From NCBI GenBank assembly GCA_028290765.1, contig JAQGJF010000459.1, positions 1 to 6,453 on the forward strand: a DNA stretch of 6,453 bases, given 5' to 3'. A program made the position numbers and the translations under genes. Position 1 is the first letter of the stretch. The number at the start of each line of letters is the position of its first letter. Shown piece after piece: positions 1-6,453 of this stretch. This stretch comes from Tardiphaga sp. GTDB lineage: Bacteria; Pseudomonadota; Alphaproteobacteria; Rhizobiales; Xanthobacteraceae. The notes below the pieces were generated by a model, which was not told where the DNA came from, did not search any database, and was given only the letters and a program-made list of their open reading frames with translations.

Positions 1-78
1 GACACGGATGAAGGGAACGGTTCGATGCCGTGCAATTGGTCGACTGCCTGGCGTCGGTCACTTAAGGAAGACACATGA
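1..78 (+). CDS. Possible 3' end of an upstream gene (partial, unrecognised)
   Basis: Reading frame 1 is open from the window edge to a TGA at 76-78. It encodes about 25 residues, including a WSTAWRRS stretch, and I recognise no family in it. Its stop overlaps the start of the DUF983 gene as ATGA, the usual sign of translational coupling, which is the only reason to list it. An open run of 25 codons is common by chance in GC-rich DNA and third-position GC is unremarkable. DUF983 genes often follow haem-copper oxidase genes, so an oxidase subunit or assembly gene upstream is possible, but that is inference. Confidence 0.25.
   Translation, partial: DTDEGNGSMPCNWSTAWRRSLKEDT
64..70 (+). promoter_or_regulatory. 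Ribosome binding site of the DUF983 gene
   Basis: AAGGAAG lies four bases before the ATG at 75. It is a good purine-rich Shine-Dalgarno sequence and supports that start codon. Confidence 0.6.
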
Positions 79-452
79 AACCGATTGATCGCGGCCATCG
101 TCGCGGGCGCATCTGGAAGGCAATCGGTCGCGCTTTGCGCAATCGCTGCCCCAGCTGTGGTCATGGAAGGTTTTTCAGCAGCTACCTTTCCCAGGTCGAA
201 CGTTGTTCGATTTGTTGTGAAGGCTTCGGGCAGATACGAACCGACGACGGTCCGGCTTGGCTGACGGTTCTGATCGTTGGGCTTTTGGTTATCCCGCTAG
301 CTCTCTACGTCGAGACGAATTATCAATGGCCTTTCGCGATCAGCGCGGTCGTGTGGCCCATTGCAGCCCTGATGCTCGCGCTTGGCGTTCTTCCCCGTGC
401 GAAGGCCGTGTTTCTCGCGGTTATATGGGCAACAAAAGCGCCCGGTTTTTGA
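75..452 (+). CDS. DUF983 family small membrane protein
   Basis: This 125-residue protein belongs to the DUF983 family. The family signature is visible: a basic N-terminus, a CPSCG motif (C25, C28) with a second pair at C44/C47 (C48 also present), then RTDDGPAW at 55-62 and two hydrophobic segments at about 62-80 and 86-106. The four cysteines suggest a small zinc-ribbon-like knuckle on one face of the inner membrane. Family members are frequently found beside cytochrome oxidase and SURF1 genes, so a role in oxidase assembly is often suspected but is not established. Here no oxidase gene follows; the next gene is an Xre regulator. A good ribosome binding site and a possible ATGA overlap with an upstream frame support the start. 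The family call is firm, the function is unknown. Confidence 0.9.
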   Translation: MKPIDRGHRRGRIWKAIGRALRNRCPSCGHGRFFSSYLSQVERCSICCEGFGQIRTDDGPAWLTVLIVGLLVIPLALYVETNYQWPFAISAVVWPIAALMLALGVLPRAKAVFLAVIWATKAPGF

Positions 453-583: not shown

Positions 584-901
584 ATGATTACAGCAAATCA
601 ACTGAGAGCTGCGCGGGCGTTGTTGAATATCGACCAGCGCGAAGCCGCAGGCCTCGCCGGGCTTTCCGTTCCGACGATACAGCGGATGGAGGCCAGCGAC
701 GGCGTGGTTCGCGGAAACGTCGATTCCCTCATGAAGCTGATTGCTGCACTTGAGGACGCCGGGATCGAGCTCATCAATGGGGGCAGTCCGAGTCCCGATG
801 GGGGGCGCGGCGTGCGGCTGAGGGAACACGTCGTCCAGCCGAAGATTCGGGCGAGGCAGCCAAAGGAGTCGACGCGCACCGTGGCGGGACGGTCTCGATA
901 G
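584..901 (+). CDS. Small Xre-family helix-turn-helix transcriptional regulator
   Basis: This 105-residue protein is a compact DNA-binding regulator. An Xre/Cro-type helix-turn-helix covers about residues 6-59: the QLRAARALLNIDQ entry helix, the positioning helix near 17-28, and the recognition helix SVPTIQRMEAS near 28-38. After the domain come IELING (61-66) and GVRLRE (76-81), a pattern I associate with many small rhizobial regulators, then a basic disordered tail of about 24 residues. There is no sensor domain, so it probably acts alone as a repressor or antitoxin-like autoregulator. No toxin partner is visible on either side. The ATG is preceded by GGGGTGA with a ten-base gap. The gene converges on the hyf-like operon, and nothing in the sequence ties it to that operon's control. 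Its target is unknown; three inverted repeats upstream are candidates. Confidence 0.85.
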   Translation: MITANQLRAARALLNIDQREAAGLAGLSVPTIQRMEASDGVVRGNVDSLMKLIAALEDAGIELINGGSPSPDGGRGVRLREHVVQPKIRARQPKESTRTVAGRSR

Positions 902-988: not shown

Positions 989-1522
989 TCACAGGGAAGC
1001 TGTGTCCGTGTTCGCCTGCTCCAGCAGAGCCAGCAGGCCCTTCAGAATTGCCGTCGGTGTGGGTGGGCACCCCTCTATGTGGAGGTCCACCGGGATGACT
1101 TCCGAAACCCCACCTACCACCGCGTAGCTGCCGGCGAAGCAGCCACCGTCGCGGCCGCAATCGCCAAGCGCGATGACCCATTTTGGGTTTGGCATCGCGT
1201 GATAGGTTATTTCCAGGGCATCGCGCATGTTCCTGGTGACCGGGCCGGTGACGAGCAGCACATCGGCGTGCCGGGGCGAAGCCACGAACCTGATCCCGAA
1301 ACGTTCGACGTCGTAATAGGCGTTGTTGACGGCGTGGATTTCCAGCTCGCAGCCATTGCAGGATCCGGCGTCCACCTCGCGGATCGAGAGACTTCGGCCC
1401 AGGCGCCGTCGGGCCGCGCGCCTGAAGGTCACCGCGATTTCGTCCATGGCGGCCGCATCCGCGGCCGGCGGAATTTCGGTCAATGGCCGTTGGACCAGGC
1501 TCTTGAAGAGAAGCTTGCGCAT
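989..1522 (-). CDS. hyfI: NuoB/HycG-like small subunit of an Ehr-type complex (HyfI-like)
   Basis: This 177-residue protein is the iron-sulfur small subunit of the complex, homologous to NuoB of complex I and HycG/HyfI of group 4 hydrogenases. It should sit on the cytoplasmic side between the large subunit and the membrane arm and carry one proximal 4Fe-4S cluster. Candidate ligands are C55 and C58 (in SCNGCELE), C122 (LGDCGRDGGC) and C152 (EGCPPTP). The spaced CNGC pair is hydrogenase-like; complex I NuoB has two adjacent cysteines there. It is shorter than E. coli HycG/HyfI (about 250), lacking the long C-terminal extension. The chosen ATG lies seven bases after the hyfG-like stop; its ribosome binding site is weak, so coupling to hyfG translation is likely. 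A much longer open frame back to 1795 runs inside hyfG and shows no homology. It is the last gene of the operon. Confidence 0.88.
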   Translation of the reverse strand: MRKLLFKSLVQRPLTEIPPAADAAAMDEIAVTFRRAARRRLGRSLSIREVDAGSCNGCELEIHAVNNAYYDVERFGIRFVASPRHADVLLVTGPVTRNMRDALEITYHAMPNPKWVIALGDCGRDGGCFAGSYAVVGGVSEVIPVDLHIEGCPPTPTAILKGLLALLEQANTDTASL

Positions 1523-1529
1523 GTCGTCT

Positions 1530-3056
1530 CTACAGGTCGTGCCCCGAGTAGGAGCAGTTGAACGATTTGTTGCAGAGTGGAAAATCCGCGACGATGTTGC
1601 CTTCGATCGCGGCTTCAAGCAGCGGCCATTGAAACCACGAGGGATCGCGCAGGTGGCAGCGCTCGACCGCTCCGGTGCCGGACAATCGAAGCCAGGCCAG
1701 CACGTCGCCGCGAAAGCCTTCGACGATCGCCAGACCTTCCCGTGGTTCGCCTTCCCGGCGTTGTCCCGGCGGGGGCGCCTGAACGCGCAGCGCACCTTCC
1801 GGCATACGGTCCAGGATCTGGTTCAGCAGCGACAGACTTTGCTCGACCTCGCGGATGCGGATCCAGACGCGCGCGTTGACGTCGCCTTCGTTGAGAACGG
1901 GGACATCGAATCGGAGCTTTTCATAGGGGGGATAACCGAGCGTCCGACGCGCATCGAATGAACGCCCCGAGCCGCGCCCCACAAAGCCCCCCGCGCCATA
2001 ATGCCTGGCGAGCGCAGGCTTCAGTGTGCCCGTCGTGACGGTCCGGTCCTGCAGCGACGCGGTATTGTCGTAGAGTTCAACCAGCGGCGGAAAACGCAGT
2101 GTCACTTCATCGATCATGACTCGAATTGCCGTTTCGTCGTCCTTGTCGAGATCCCGCGTCACGCCCCCCGGCGTGATGATGTCCCGCATCAACCGGTGCC
2201 CGAATCCGGTTTCCGCGGCCCGCAGCACCAATTCCCGCAACACGCTGCAATGCGCATGGATCAGCGCAAAGGATGCATCGTTGCAGATTGCGCCGAAATC
2301 GCCGAGATGGTTGGCTAGGCGCTCGAGCTCGGCCAGCAGCGCGCGCAACCAGACGGCGCGAGGCGGCACCTCGATCTGCAGCGCGGCTTCGGCGGCGCGC
2401 GAGAAAGCGTAGGCATAAGCCACCGTACTGTCGCCGGAGGTGCGTCCTGCAAGCTGCGCCGCCCGCTCCAGCGGCGCACCGACCATCAAGCCCTCGATGC
2501 CTTTGTGCGTGTAGCCGAGCCGCTGCTCGAGCCGGACCACGGTTTCGCCGGAAGCCGTGAAGCGGAAATGTCCCGGTTCGATGATTCCGGCATGCACCGG
2601 ACCGACCGCGATCTGGTGCAGATCATCTCCTTCGGCGGTAAGAAAGCGGTAGGCGGGCGCAGTCGATGGCACGTCGATACGGTCCTGTAACGGAAAGTTG
2701 ACGCCCCAGCGACCATGGTCGAGCCACGGTCGCGTATCCAGCGCCGCTTCGGGCTCCAGTCCAAACAGATCGTGAATGGAGCGTTCCAGCCGGATCGCCG
2801 GAGCATGGTGCTTGCCGACCGACGGGTAGCGCCGCTCGGGGCAATCGAGGCTGACGACGGCAACATCCGGCGCGGACTCGTCGAACAGGGCCATGTGCAC
2901 CGCTGACGGTTCGCCCCAAAGCCCGAGCAACGTCCAGCGGTCCAGTGCAATCTGGCTGACCGCAAAATTCCAGACATCCGGACCGATCACCGCCCTGGGC
3001 CAGGGGCGCTGGTCCTGCCTGGTGCCTTCCAGGATGAGATCGATCAGAGATGGCAT
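1530..3056 (-). CDS. hyfG: HyfG/HycE-like large subunit lacking Ni-Fe ligands (Ehr-type)
   Basis: This 508-residue protein fuses two peripheral-arm modules, as HycE and HyfG do. Residues about 30-125 are the NuoC-like 30 kDa domain, ending in ERSIHDLFGLEPE (91-103). Residues about 150-508 are the NuoD-like 49 kDa or hydrogenase large-subunit domain, starting with VGPVHAGIIEPGHFRF (151-166) and RLGYTHKGIE (179-188). In true group 4 hydrogenases four cysteines hold the Ni-Fe site. Here the N-terminal pair is replaced in RTSGDS (205-210, serines at 207 and 210) and the C-terminal pair in DPSWFQ (471-476, serine 473 and glutamine 476). It therefore cannot bind Ni-Fe in the known way and is best classed with the Ehr complexes, of unknown substrate. 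After the second site runs a 32-residue tail containing C495 and C501. The start at 3056 follows GGAGTGAG at six bases; an in-frame ATG 13 codons upstream overlaps hyfF and has a poor site. Confidence 0.9.
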   Translation of the reverse strand: MPSLIDLILEGTRQDQRPWPRAVIGPDVWNFAVSQIALDRWTLLGLWGEPSAVHMALFDESAPDVAVVSLDCPERRYPSVGKHHAPAIRLERSIHDLFGLEPEAALDTRPWLDHGRWGVNFPLQDRIDVPSTAPAYRFLTAEGDDLHQIAVGPVHAGIIEPGHFRFTASGETVVRLEQRLGYTHKGIEGLMVGAPLERAAQLAGRTSGDSTVAYAYAFSRAAEAALQIEVPPRAVWLRALLAELERLANHLGDFGAICNDASFALIHAHCSVLRELVLRAAETGFGHRLMRDIITPGGVTRDLDKDDETAIRVMIDEVTLRFPPLVELYDNTASLQDRTVTTGTLKPALARHYGAGGFVGRGSGRSFDARRTLGYPPYEKLRFDVPVLNEGDVNARVWIRIREVEQSLSLLNQILDRMPEGALRVQAPPPGQRREGEPREGLAIVEGFRGDVLAWLRLSGTGAVERCHLRDPSWFQWPLLEAAIEGNIVADFPLCNKSFNCSYSGHDL

Positions 3057-3072: not shown

Positions 3073-4524
3073 TCATCCGAGGATAGTGGCCACATGCTGA
3101 AACCAGGTCACCAGCGGCGGCGGCAGATAGATCCCGGCCGTAAAGACCAGCGCCAGATGCGCATACATCGGAACATAGGAAGCCTGCGCCGGCGCGGTGC
3201 TGCCGCGTGCTTCGCCAAACGCGACACTGGTCAGCCGCAACATCAAGGCGCCAAGGGCAACCAGGAGTCCGAACACCAGCAGAATGGCCAGCAGAGGCTG
3301 CCGGGCAAAGGTCGAGCTTACGACCAGGAACTCGCTCATGAAAATCCCAAGCGGCGGCAACCCGGCGATGGCGACGACGCCAATGACGAGACCCCACCCC
3401 AGCCCCGGATGGGTCTCGGTCAGTCCACGAAGGTTGGCGAGTTTTTGGGTGCCCTTGACCTGTGCAATATTTCCGACGGCGTAGAAGATCGCCGATTTGG
3501 TCAGGCTGTGCATCACCATATGCAGTAGTCCGGCAAAATTGGCGAGCGCGCCGCCCATTCCGAACGCAAAAACGATAATGCCCATATGTTCGATGGAAGA
3601 GTAGGCGAACATCCGTTTGATGTCGCGGCGGCGATAGAGCATGAATGCGGCGAAGATCAGCGAAGCCAGCCCCAACGTCACCATCAGCGGACCGGGTGCG
3701 ATCGCGTCCGAATTGGCCGCCAGCAATATCTTGAAGCGCAGCAGGGCGTAGAGCGCGACATTCAAGAGCAGGCCGGACAGCACGGCGGATATCGGCGTCG
3801 GTCCTTCGGCATGGGCGTCCGGAAGCCAGGCATGAAGCGGCACCAGGCCGACCTTGGTGCCATAACCGAGCAACAGAAACACGAAAGCAACATTCAAAAG
3901 AGCCGGATCGAACTGAGAGGCGCGCTCGACCAGCAGCGTCCAGATCATGGCGTCGCGGCCTTCGCCGATGACGGGACGGGCGGCCATGTAGACCAGGATC
4001 GTTCCGAACAACGCCAGCGCAATGCCCACGCTTCCCAGAATGAAATATTTCCAGGCGGCCTCGAGCGCTTCGTGGGTCCGGTACAGTCCGACCATCAGGA
4101 CGGTCGTCAGCGTGGCGATTTCGATCGCCACCCACATCAGCCCGATATTGTTCGACACGAACGCGAGGTTCATGCCGAACATCATCATCTGATACATCGC
4201 GTGGTAGAAGCGGAGATAGGTGGGCGTCAGCTTGCCGGTCTCCAGCTCATGCGCGATGTAGCTGGCGCTGAAGATGCTGGTGGTGAAGCCGACGAAGGTG
4301 TTGAGGACGATGAAGACGATATTGAGGTCGTCGACCAGCAAATAAGGGCCGGGCAGCGGACGATCGACGATCAACAGAGAGGCGGCGGCGAGAAAAGTCG
4401 CCAGGCTCGCGGCGATGTTCAACCGCGCGGTCAATCGATAGTCGGGCAGCAGCGCGAGCGGCAGGATGGCGAATACGGGTATCAGAAGGATTGCCGTCTC
4501 GGCGTCGAAGGAAAGCCCGCTCAT
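3073..4524 (-). CDS. hyfF: HyfF-like antiporter-type proton channel subunit
   Basis: This 483-residue integral membrane protein belongs to the NuoL/M/N and Mrp antiporter-like family, HyfF branch, with about 13-14 predicted membrane segments. Its role would be to move protons or sodium ions across the inner membrane, driven by electron transfer in the peripheral arm. The charged residues of the family's channel are present: E135 in WVAIEIATL, K159 in WKYFILGS, K224 in LLGYGTKVGLVPLH, H231 ahead of AWLPDAH, K343 in MHSLTKSAIFY and E398 in IFMSEFL. The discontinuous-helix region GPTPISAVLSG (241-251) is intact. The length is close to that of E. coli HyfF (about 526), slightly shorter at the C-terminus. 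Its ATG overlaps the hyfE stop as ATGA and follows GGGGGAA at about seven bases. It has none of the C-terminal lateral helix expected of a NuoL/HyfB-type subunit. Confidence 0.92.
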   Translation of the reverse strand: MSGLSFDAETAILLIPVFAILPLALLPDYRLTARLNIAASLATFLAAASLLIVDRPLPGPYLLVDDLNIVFIVLNTFVGFTTSIFSASYIAHELETGKLTPTYLRFYHAMYQMMMFGMNLAFVSNNIGLMWVAIEIATLTTVLMVGLYRTHEALEAAWKYFILGSVGIALALFGTILVYMAARPVIGEGRDAMIWTLLVERASQFDPALLNVAFVFLLLGYGTKVGLVPLHAWLPDAHAEGPTPISAVLSGLLLNVALYALLRFKILLAANSDAIAPGPLMVTLGLASLIFAAFMLYRRRDIKRMFAYSSIEHMGIIVFAFGMGGALANFAGLLHMVMHSLTKSAIFYAVGNIAQVKGTQKLANLRGLTETHPGLGWGLVIGVVAIAGLPPLGIFMSEFLVVSSTFARQPLLAILLVFGLLVALGALMLRLTSVAFGEARGSTAPAQASYVPMYAHLALVFTAGIYLPPPLVTWFQHVATILG

Positions 4525-5183: not shown

Positions 5184-6140
5184 CTACATGCTCCTCGACA
5201 CGAACAACAAAAGCGTGCCGAGCAGGCCGAGCATGAGCGCCGCGCCGAGAAATTCGGGCACACGGAAAACGCGCATCTTCGCTGTCGCTGTCTCGAACAG
5301 GGCCAGCAGAAATCCGGCGAGTGCGAGCTTGGCGAGATAGAGTCCGGCACTAACGACATAGGCCATCGGCCCGGCGCCGAGGATGGCCAGCTTCCATGGT
5401 ACGAATACGCAAACGATCAGTGAGGCATAGAGCAGCAGCTTGAGCGAAGCCGCGAATTCGATCATCGCCAGATGGCGTCCGGAGTATTCCAGAACCATTG
5501 CCTCATGCACCATGGTGAGTTCGAGGTGCGTCGCGGGGTTGTCCACCGGGATACGCCCGTTTTCGGCAATCGCGACCATGATGAGTGCAATCATCGCCAT
5601 GGCCAACGAGACGCGCAGGCCGACGGTGGGAGATGCCATGAAAGTGGCGACGGCAGACAGCTGGGTCGAGCCGGCGACCAGGGCCAGACAAAACACGATC
5701 ATCAGCATCGCCGGCTCAGCGAGCGCTGCGATCATGACTTCCCGGCTCGAGCCGATCCCGCCGAAGCTGGTGCCGACATCCATTCCGGCCAGCGCCAGGA
5801 AGAAGCGTCCGCTTCCAAGCAGCGCAACGATGGCGATCAGATCGGCGGTCCAGCTGAACAGCAGGCCTGTCGCGAAGGTCGGAACCAGTGCTGCGGCAAC
5901 CCAGGTTGCGGCGAAGATCAGGTAGGGCGTCACGCGAAACAGCCAGGACGCATTGTCGGCCAGCACCACTTCCTTGCGCATCAGCCGCAACAGGTCACGG
6001 TACGGTTGAAAGATGGACGGACCCTGGCGGCGCAGCAGGCGGGCCTTGGCCTTGCGCACGAATCCCGTGAGCAGCGGCGAGAGCACGAGCACAAGCGCCA
6101 TCTGAACGGTCTGAACGAGGATGTCGGAGATCACGACCAT
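5184..6140 (-). CDS. hyfC: HyfC/NuoH-like membrane anchor subunit
   Basis: This 318-residue protein is the NuoH-family subunit that anchors the peripheral arm in the membrane and, in complex I, forms part of the quinone cavity and the start of the proton path. About eight membrane segments are predicted. Family landmarks are RRQGPSIFQPYRDLLRLMRKE (37-57), GMDVGTSFGGIGSSRE (119-134), LAEPA (140-144) and the acidic loop starting at ENGRIPVDNP (193-202) and continuing through E213 to E218 in LEYSG. The length matches E. coli HyfC (315). The ATG at 6140 overlaps the hyfB end by ten bases; a GTG at 6134 would give a GTGA overlap instead and cannot be excluded, since neither has a strong ribosome binding site. 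The stop abuts the hyfE start. Confidence 0.92.
   Translation of the reverse strand: MVVISDILVQTVQMALVLVLSPLLTGFVRKAKARLLRRQGPSIFQPYRDLLRLMRKEVVLADNASWLFRVTPYLIFAATWVAAALVPTFATGLLFSWTADLIAIVALLGSGRFFLALAGMDVGTSFGGIGSSREVMIAALAEPAMLMIVFCLALVAGSTQLSAVATFMASPTVGLRVSLAMAMIALIMVAIAENGRIPVDNPATHLELTMVHEAMVLEYSGRHLAMIEFAASLKLLLYASLIVCVFVPWKLAILGAGPMAYVVSAGLYLAKLALAGFLLALFETATAKMRVFRVPEFLGAALMLGLLGTLLLFVSRSM
5191..5196 (-). promoter_or_regulatory. Ribosome binding site of hyfE
   Basis: GAGGAG on the minus strand, within the end of hyfC, lies seven bases before the hyfE ATG at 5183. It is the clearest Shine-Dalgarno sequence in the operon and fixes the hyfE start. Confidence 0.65.
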
Positions 6141-6453
6141 ATCGCAAGCACCGCGAGCAAGGTTACGAGCGCCAGAAAAACCAGACTCAGATACTGCCGA
6201 ATGGTCAGAAATTGGAACCGGTTCAGTCGGCTGGCAACAAAGCCAATGGCTTCGACGATGGGTTCGTACAGGGCGTCCCAGACCAAGTCGCGAAGCTCGA
6301 TGGTGAACCGCGCGGGCCGGATGTCTCCAGGCGCCGGCAGAACGACGCGCTCGCGGGCTGCGAATGCCATGGCGAAGACGCGACGAAGCGGCTGCGCGAA
6401 GCTGGCCCCGGAATACTGGGCCGCCGGGGTCAGGTCAGAAAACCCGCAGCCCC
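6131..6453 (-). CDS. hyfB: HyfB-like antiporter subunit, C-terminal fragment (5' end outside window)
   Basis: The frame is open from the window edge to the TGA at 6131-6133, giving the last 106 residues of a NuoL/HyfB-type protein. The fragment opens with GCGFSDLTPAAQYSGASFAQ and PLRRVF, which matches the conserved 'CG..LT...QY...SFA.PL..VF' stretch of HyfB and related antiporter subunits after their core helices. It ends with one membrane helix (about residues 84-106, from IRQYLSLVF to the stop). The charged segment between them, with ELRDLVWDALYEPIVEAIG, looks like the amphipathic lateral region. The proton-channel core lies outside the window. It is the first visible gene of the operon and overlaps hyfC. 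Confidence 0.85.
   Translation of the reverse strand, partial: GCGFSDLTPAAQYSGASFAQPLRRVFAMAFAARERVVLPAPGDIRPARFTIELRDLVWDALYEPIVEAIGFVASRLNRFQFLTIRQYLSLVFLALVTLLAVLAIWS

Follow-up and report, generated by a model that had tools for sequence, protein, structure and literature searches.

Gene content of the locus

The window, the whole 6,453-nt stretch of Tardiphaga sp. DNA analysed here, carries six hyf-like genes on the reverse strand, one of them (hyfB) incomplete at the window edge, and two genes on the forward strand:

75–452, forward strand: DUF983 gene
584–901, forward strand: XRE-type regulator, which accompanies the operon in relatives
989–1522, reverse strand: hyfI-like (EhrS) small subunit, 177 aa, with a C-x2-C...C...C motif; one proximal [4Fe-4S] cluster predicted
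1358–1360, 1349–1351, 1157–1159 and 1067–1069, reverse strand: codons of the small-subunit cluster cysteines
1530–3056, reverse strand: hyfG-like (EhrL) large subunit, 508 aa, 30-kDa and 49-kDa domains fused
1533–1574, reverse strand: CNKSFNCSYSGHDL (residues 495–508), C-terminal end of the large subunit, opposite HycE IIGSLDPCYSCTDR
1629–1646, reverse strand: DPSWFQ (residues 471–476) of the large subunit, conserved, opposite HycE AATYAN
2427–2444, reverse strand: RTSGDS (residues 205–210) of the large subunit, opposite HycE RVCGIC
3073–4524, reverse strand: hyfF-like antiporter-like membrane subunit, 483 aa
4521–5183, reverse strand: hyfE-like membrane subunit, 220 aa
5184–6140, reverse strand: hyfC-like (NuoH/HycD family) membrane anchor, 318 aa
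5478–5555, reverse strand: HyfC loop RIPVDNPATHLELTMVHEAMVLEYSG, 26 residues, with H205 and H212
6131–6451, reverse strand: hyfB-like antiporter-like subunit, C-terminal 106 aa, the remainder lying beyond the window edge

The original prediction described the frame at 1530–3056 as a hydrogenase-type large subunit with RTSGDS at residues 205–210 and DPSWFQ at 471–476, and the frame and both motifs are present as it stated. The frame starts at the second ATG; an alternative ATG upstream, at 3095, would extend the protein to 521 aa. Residue numbers used here are those of the 508-aa frame (13 is to be added for the longer one). The hyfB-like fragment matches residues 568–668 of the 669 in the hydrogenase 4 subunit B model. 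An identical protein (100% over 508 aa) is listed in the database from JGI; the closest relatives with an organism name are from Bradyrhizobium, at up to 75–76% identity, and metagenome proteins reach 88%. Among 398 genomes drawn from the phylum, 182 have a match at E 1e-25 or better, many of them NuoD-like, and 62 have, by our own count of the matches listed, one of at least 41% identity that reaches the C-terminus.

Eighty related loci were collected, and gene neighborhoods were compared at the 62 with full flanks; gene calls in the GC-rich loci are longest open frames, antisense frames included. A homologue of the XRE regulator is found at 57 of these 62, upstream on the operon's strand in 43 and downstream in 13. 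In the window it is downstream and convergent, and the 13 downstream relatives are 12 Bradyrhizobium and one Xanthobacteraceae. A spermidine-synthase-like gene lies near the operon in 4 of the 62 loci and a YoaK-family gene in seven (among them L094, L092, L145 and some alphaproteobacterial loci). At locus L139 (226–4168) hyfC is preceded by two hyfB-like matches in a row, which may represent a duplication of this antiporter-like subunit.

Register of the Ni-Fe ligand motifs

RTSGDS had been predicted to be the counterpart of the hydrogenase motif RxCGxC, and it does match HycE RVCGIC in the alignments. The parallel claim, that DPSWFQ corresponds to DPCxxC, proved wrong. With HMMER, MAFFT (20 proteins) and hhalign (probability 100), DPSWFQ falls opposite HycE AATYAN, and HycE DPCYSC aligns ungapped with NCSYSG (residues 500–505), a register that rules out DPSWFQ as the second ligand motif. 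The columns of the four HycE Ni-Fe ligands hold S207, S210, S502 and G505, so the predicted loss of all four stands; no cysteine of the protein falls in them, C501 being one residue off the third, at the Pro of DPC.

The best solved relative of the large subunit is HycE (7z0s_E), by sequence and by fold, and the fold is also close to NuoD/NDUFS2; MBH and MBS chains are absent from the 50 VIA-align structural matches listed, which is no argument against kinship. An AlphaFold2 model (mean pLDDT 92.5; mean 63 for residues 501–508) aligns with HycE over 500 residues, model 1–507 to HycE 7–537, so HycE 529–534 must be close to the end of the model. At the C-terminus, the structural match (507 to 537) and the sequence register (507 to 536) differ by one residue, and given the low confidence of the model's end, the structure alone leaves room for C501 at a ligand position.

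In group 4a [NiFe] hydrogenases, a C-terminal extension is removed after cofactor insertion. The window protein stops opposite HycE R537, the last aligned residue of the solved chain, and the hycE gene encodes a further tail. Of the group 4a features, neither the RxCGxC and DPCxxC ligand motifs nor a cleavable C-terminal extension was found in the window protein. Three features of Ehr (energy-converting hydrogenase related) complexes were found: homology to group 4 [NiFe] hydrogenases, absence of the Ni-Fe cysteines, and clustering with antiporter-like and small subunits (hyfB as a C-terminal fragment).

Conservation of the former Ni-Fe pocket

R-x-SGDS is present in all 81 sequences (the 80 loci and the window) and is thus neither chance nor sequencing error. 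DPSWF is likewise present in 81 of 81, partly by selection, since DPSWFQWP was one of the six search patterns used to find the loci. A large-subunit alignment of 134 deduplicated sequences was hand-sorted into 118 of the main family, 4 divergent, 7 hydrogenase and 5 NuoD-like; the main-family sequences come from genomes and plasmids of Pseudomonadota and from a single Rhodococcus plasmid. In these 118, of wider origin, the DPSWF motif has D in 117, P in 115 and S in 118. Counts are also given for 240 database proteins, the best 120 hits of a search with the window protein and the best 120 of one with the Rhodococcus protein, which overlap in kind with the 118 and are not independent of them.

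At the ligand columns of the main family, Ser is found at 207 in 115 sequences, at 210 in 110 and at 502 in 113, and Gly505 in all 118; Cys occurs once at 207 and never at 210, 502 or 505. Of the best 120 Rhodococcus-search hits, 119 have Thr at position 210. A single Cys at column 207 is seen in 10 of the 240 database proteins, the other three ligand columns having none in the counts listed.

The hydrogenase Cys-Gly-Ile-Cys has become Ser-Gly-Asp-Ser in the main family, and Ile-Ile-Gly-Ser-Leu-Asp-Pro-Cys has become Asn-Lys-Ser-Phe-Asn-(Cys/Leu)-Ser; N496, K497 and N500 are specific to the main family. D209, K497, S498, F499, N500, G505 and D507 are invariant in the 118 sequences, and in the 240 database hits D209 and K497 are kept throughout and N500 in 238. 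Mean pairwise identity within the main family is 59% and the lowest 33%, so the invariance of D209, K497 and N500 indicates that these sites are constrained. Sites that are the same in all 118 sequences make up 8%, and D209, K497, N500 and G505 belong to them, which rules out a pseudogene or decayed site. Judged by its sequence, the pocket that once held Ni-Fe has been remodelled rather than left to decay.

Residues of the hydrogenase-type path are also kept, E160 in 117 of 118 and H250, R361, E403 and R449 in all; the HycE path residues are named in a passage of PMC9474812. The canopy Asp is replaced by Asn (N500) in 118 of 118.

C501 is Cys in 108 and Leu in 9 of the 118 sequences, and Leu in 114 of the 120 best hits of the Rhodococcus search. 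A family-wide metal site made of C495 and C501 was considered: both are Cys in all 120 best hits of the window search, but Thr/Ala/Val and Leu, respectively, replace them in nearly all of the best 120 Rhodococcus-search hits, which rules it out.

Maturation genes in carrier genomes

HypD is one of six Hyp proteins said, in a passage of PMC12134894, to be needed for the Ni-Fe cofactor. A match to it was found in 12 of 31 carrier genomes and was absent from 19; these are genomes of relatives hand-picked from the 80 loci, not a random set, with completeness not stated. One of the relatives with no HypD match is Rhizobium johnstonii 3841, whose copy of the genes is on pRL11 (RL_RS31230–RL_RS31255). 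In 18 of the 19 genomes without HypD there is at most one [NiFe] large-subunit match, weak and partial (profile positions ~1–67, frames of 505–618 aa), like the Ehr protein's own. The other, G031, has five hydrogenase-family matches, so an assembly gap is possible there. This distribution suggests that the complex does not need a Ni-Fe cofactor.

It bears as well on whether the protein could have remained a hydrogenase in which Ser or C501 stand in for the lost ligands. In favor of this, C501 is next to a ligand column and most main-family sequences keep this Cys, and the structural alignment leaves a one-residue doubt about how the ends are matched. Against this, three of the ligand columns never hold Cys in the 118 sequences, HypD is without a match in those 19 genomes, and there is no C-terminal tail; such a hydrogenase is extremely improbable.

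The small subunit and neighbouring genes

The four cluster cysteines of the small subunit (C-x2-C, C, C) are each kept in 114 of 115 family sequences, with hydrogenase spacing. Candidate electron-input partners were sought around the operon. Homologues of HyfA, HycB and HyfJ were found at none of the 62 full-flank loci (tblastn with E. coli queries, E 1e-5), and a HycF/HyfH-like sequence at one place, L001 122–499, more than 4 kb from the operon. Open frames of 180 aa or more in the neighborhood were scanned (120 of 323, from 53 of the 62 loci), with no recurrent oxidoreductase partner or ferredoxin among the 25 of 117 Pfam families listed, where single occurrences could be hidden.

In E. coli formate hydrogenlyase and hydrogenase 4 (HycE, HyfG) the four Ni-Fe cysteines, the canopy Asp and the C-terminal tail are present, in contrast to the window protein; the relatives' operons also differ from them in having no adjoining HyfA/HycB or HyfJ, and two antiporter-like genes rather than three in the gene orders listed.

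One reading on which these neighborhoods bear is a formate-linked complex that works with a formate dehydrogenase from another part of the genome, a link proposed for Geobacter Ehr and Nitrospira hyf. In Geobacter sulfurreducens, according to passages of PMC7894505, Ehr subunits reach higher levels with formate than under conditions that contain hydrogen, and its authors take this to support H2 production from formate; in passages of PMC5596200 the same six genes in Nitrospira are described as a putative group 4 hydrogenase, probably a formate hydrogenlyase, with a co-occurring formate dehydrogenase proposed. That the best solved relative is HycE fits as well. However, no HycB-like link protein was found beside the operon at the 62 full-flank loci and no recurrent partner in the neighbour scan; abundance is not function; and the likeness to Geobacter and Nitrospira is drawn from published descriptions. 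For the window complex a formate link of this kind is quite improbable.

The lack of an electron-input subunit beside the operon, together with a constrained, charged pocket that has no metal ligands, would also suit a complex with no redox catalysis at all, its peripheral arm acting as the sensor or gate of an antiporter-like ion channel. The four kept cluster cysteines are hard to account for without electron transfer, and this is very improbable.

A sulfane-sulfur reductase like MBS/Mbx of Pyrococcus furiosus is hardly credible. MBS is likewise a relative without a Ni-Fe centre, but as described in passages of PMC7684303 it keeps two of the four cysteines and has a three-Cys proximal cluster; the window has none of the four and a four-Cys motif with hydrogenase spacing.

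Membrane subunits and comparison with complex I

In the superfamily, the loop between transmembrane helices 5 and 6 of the membrane anchor lies beneath the substrate cavity. In HyfC this loop has 26 residues in 94 of 98 sequences, versus 23 in all four hydrogenase HycD/HyfC sequences (the HyfC sequences counted here and for the two His below are not deduplicated; of the other four, L096 has a 25-residue loop, and L058, L141 and L143 escaped the loop pattern). HMMER places a three-residue gap at this loop in solved HycD, MbhM and ND1. H205 and H212 are each kept in 96 of 97 covered sequences.

In HyfF, E135, K159, K265, K343, E398, H335 and H339 are kept in at least 98% of covered sequences, a pattern compatible with ion translocation, although the Lys of GTKVGLVPLHAW falls short of that level. 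The HyfF of the Rhodococcus sp. WAY2 plasmid (L093, 7244–8761), as aligned, has other residues at the antiporter-like E135 and E398, and pumping may be altered there. These Glu changes and the Lys of GTKVGLVPLHAW that is not kept mean that pumping may not be general.

The complex shares with respiratory complex I (NuoD/NuoB/NuoH) both its fold and the loss of all four cysteines, which raises the possibility of a quinone-reducing, carrier-fed complex whose Cys-less pocket takes quinone as complex I does. HyfC belongs to the NuoH family, the large-subunit fold is near NuoD/NDUFS2, and H184, opposite the conserved NuoD His that is taken to be the one of the quinone site, is invariant in 118 of 118 main-family sequences. 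It is however also found in 6 of 7 hydrogenase sequences and so is not diagnostic of a quinone site. At residue 208, the column of the NuoD quinone Tyr, 117 of 118 sequences have Gly; Asn takes the place of the canopy Asp in every sequence; ND1 has a shorter loop than HyfC; the cluster cysteines are spaced C-x2-C as in hydrogenases, not as the tandem pair of complex I; and the family forms a separate branch in the tree (below). Quinone reduction is regarded as unlikely.

Phylogeny and divergent relatives

A tree was built from 51 of the 134 large-subunit sequences, rooted on NuoD and with only six hydrogenase sequences, groups such as 4f not being included. The family (100/99) joins HycE/HyfG (100/98), apart from NuoD and two CooH/Ech-like sequences. 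The protein of Cupriavidus metallidurans, whose hyf genes are described in PMC2864759 (in passages), is included (strain FDAARGOS_675, L092). Nitrospira Ehr is placed near group 4f in a passage of PMC10284858.

Four divergent sequences (Caballeronia L096 and L132–L134) have no Ni-Fe cysteines and neither D209 nor K497, which means that some relatives without Ni-Fe lack the pocket signature. In L132–L134 the ligand columns hold N, D, L and G. These three sit within the family on a very long branch (4.7) where their placement is unsure, with the result that the family label is not one clade in the tree. They come from a very divergent cluster in three small genomes (about 2.0–2.3 Mb), in which the large and small subunits are recognisable; in L132, the four open frames at the expected place of the membrane subunits match no Pfam model at E 0.01.

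L096, from a plasmid of Caballeronia sp. SBC2, resembles the window in lacking the Ni-Fe cysteines and in having homologues of hyfC, E, F, G, I and B. It differs from the main family in not keeping D209 and K497 and in its small subunit, to which a ferredoxin domain with two clusters is fused in frame (10089–10898). In the NuoD-rooted tree it diverges first within the family (100/99), and it is a possible intermediate between formate hydrogenlyase and Ehr. Since it branches first, without Ni-Fe cysteines yet with the fused ferredoxin domain, it suggests that the Ni-Fe site was lost first and a ferredoxin-like subunit later, as read from one long-branched sequence and a chosen root.

Nature of the complex and a possible mechanism

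The complex is almost certainly of the Ehr type, an assignment that the original prediction had made and that the ligand loss, the make-up of the operon and published descriptions (as passages) all back. Further points in its favor are the cluster cysteines of the small subunit and the antiporter-like residues, both kept, the lack of a cleavable tail, the lack of ferredoxin-like or assembly genes beside the relatives' operons, and the strongly conserved, remodelled pocket. Such a complex would be a membrane complex of the complex I superfamily with the six subunits of hyfBCEFGI, related to formate hydrogenlyase and without a Ni-Fe centre; with the Ni-Fe cysteines lost, it probably does different chemistry than a hydrogenase.

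This kind of complex is already known, and that of the window is a further, ordinary member of the widespread Ehr family. Ehr proteins without Ni-Fe ligands are described in passages of PMC6349859, PMC10284858, PMC4378227 and PMC7304191. Their function is called unknown in the second and third of these; the first suspects that redox chemistry drives charge translocation and puts forward formate dehydrogenase as a partner, and the last considers H2 unlikely as the substrate. The same six genes occur in C. metallidurans CH34 and strain H16, where a role in lithotrophic growth is termed very unlikely (PMC2864759), and in Acidithiobacillus ferrooxidans, where they are classed as non-hydrogenase by HydDB and formate oxidation is thought possible (PMC7735108), again in passages of these papers. 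As described there, the clusters of CH34, H16, A. ferrooxidans and Nitrospira are like the window in a Cys-less, group-4-like large subunit, the six genes, or both, and no feature setting the window copy apart from them was found. Geobacter Ehr subunits are reported in a passage of PMC8691401 to be more abundant in syntrophic coculture. Passages on Rhizobium leguminosarum mutant screens (PMC5118466, PMC11103875) hold nothing on these genes. The signature of pocket and HyfC loop together was not found in the passages describing Ehr in the open-access literature, and is not claimed to be unpublished.

The original prediction also spoke of ion pumping with a different redox or conformational input, which the sequences allow as a proposal. 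The mechanism slightly favored here is a carrier-fed oxidoreductase with a metal-free pocket, coupled to ion translocation. A soluble one-electron carrier, ferredoxin-like, would give electrons directly to the proximal [4Fe-4S] cluster of the small subunit; the former Ni-Fe pocket, formed by S-G-D-S, N-K-S-F-N and the His-bearing HyfC loop, would bind a small substrate other than H2 and exchange electrons and protons with it; and the kept Glu/His/Arg path and the membrane arm would couple this chemistry to ion translocation. The formate and H2 production linked to such complexes in passages of PMC7894505 and PMC5596200 counts against a metal-free mechanism. A stronger form of the proposal is rather unlikely and is offered tentatively, namely that the main family represents a new kind of active site, a metal-free charged pocket (D209, K497, N496, N500, S207, S502) facing the two-His HyfC loop, carrier-fed through a one-cluster small subunit and pumping ions with a substrate that is not H2, quinone or polysulfide, possibly a small carbon acid (formate, CO2).

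Ehr complexes are widespread, yet their database names are hydrogenase 4, formate hydrogenlyase or NADH dehydrogenase. The original prediction held a 'hydrogenase 4' name to be misleading, and this is borne out here: with the 'hydrogenase 4 subunit F' model, whose cut-off is 533, HyfF reaches 910.5 bits, and large subunits of relatives are entered as 'NADH-quinone oxidoreductase subunit C', 'nickel-dependent hydrogenase large subunit' or 'hydrogenase expression protein HypE'. The host is a soil bacterium akin to root-nodule bacteria, and its complex resembles a hydrogen-making enzyme; the presence of Ehr complexes in soil bacteria without a HypD match sets them apart from hydrogen metabolism. 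The invariant pocket residues and the HyfC loop are concrete sites for mutation and give a handle on the old open question of Ehr function. If a substrate were found, it would add a further branch to the ways in which the complex I superfamily has exchanged its catalytic centre.
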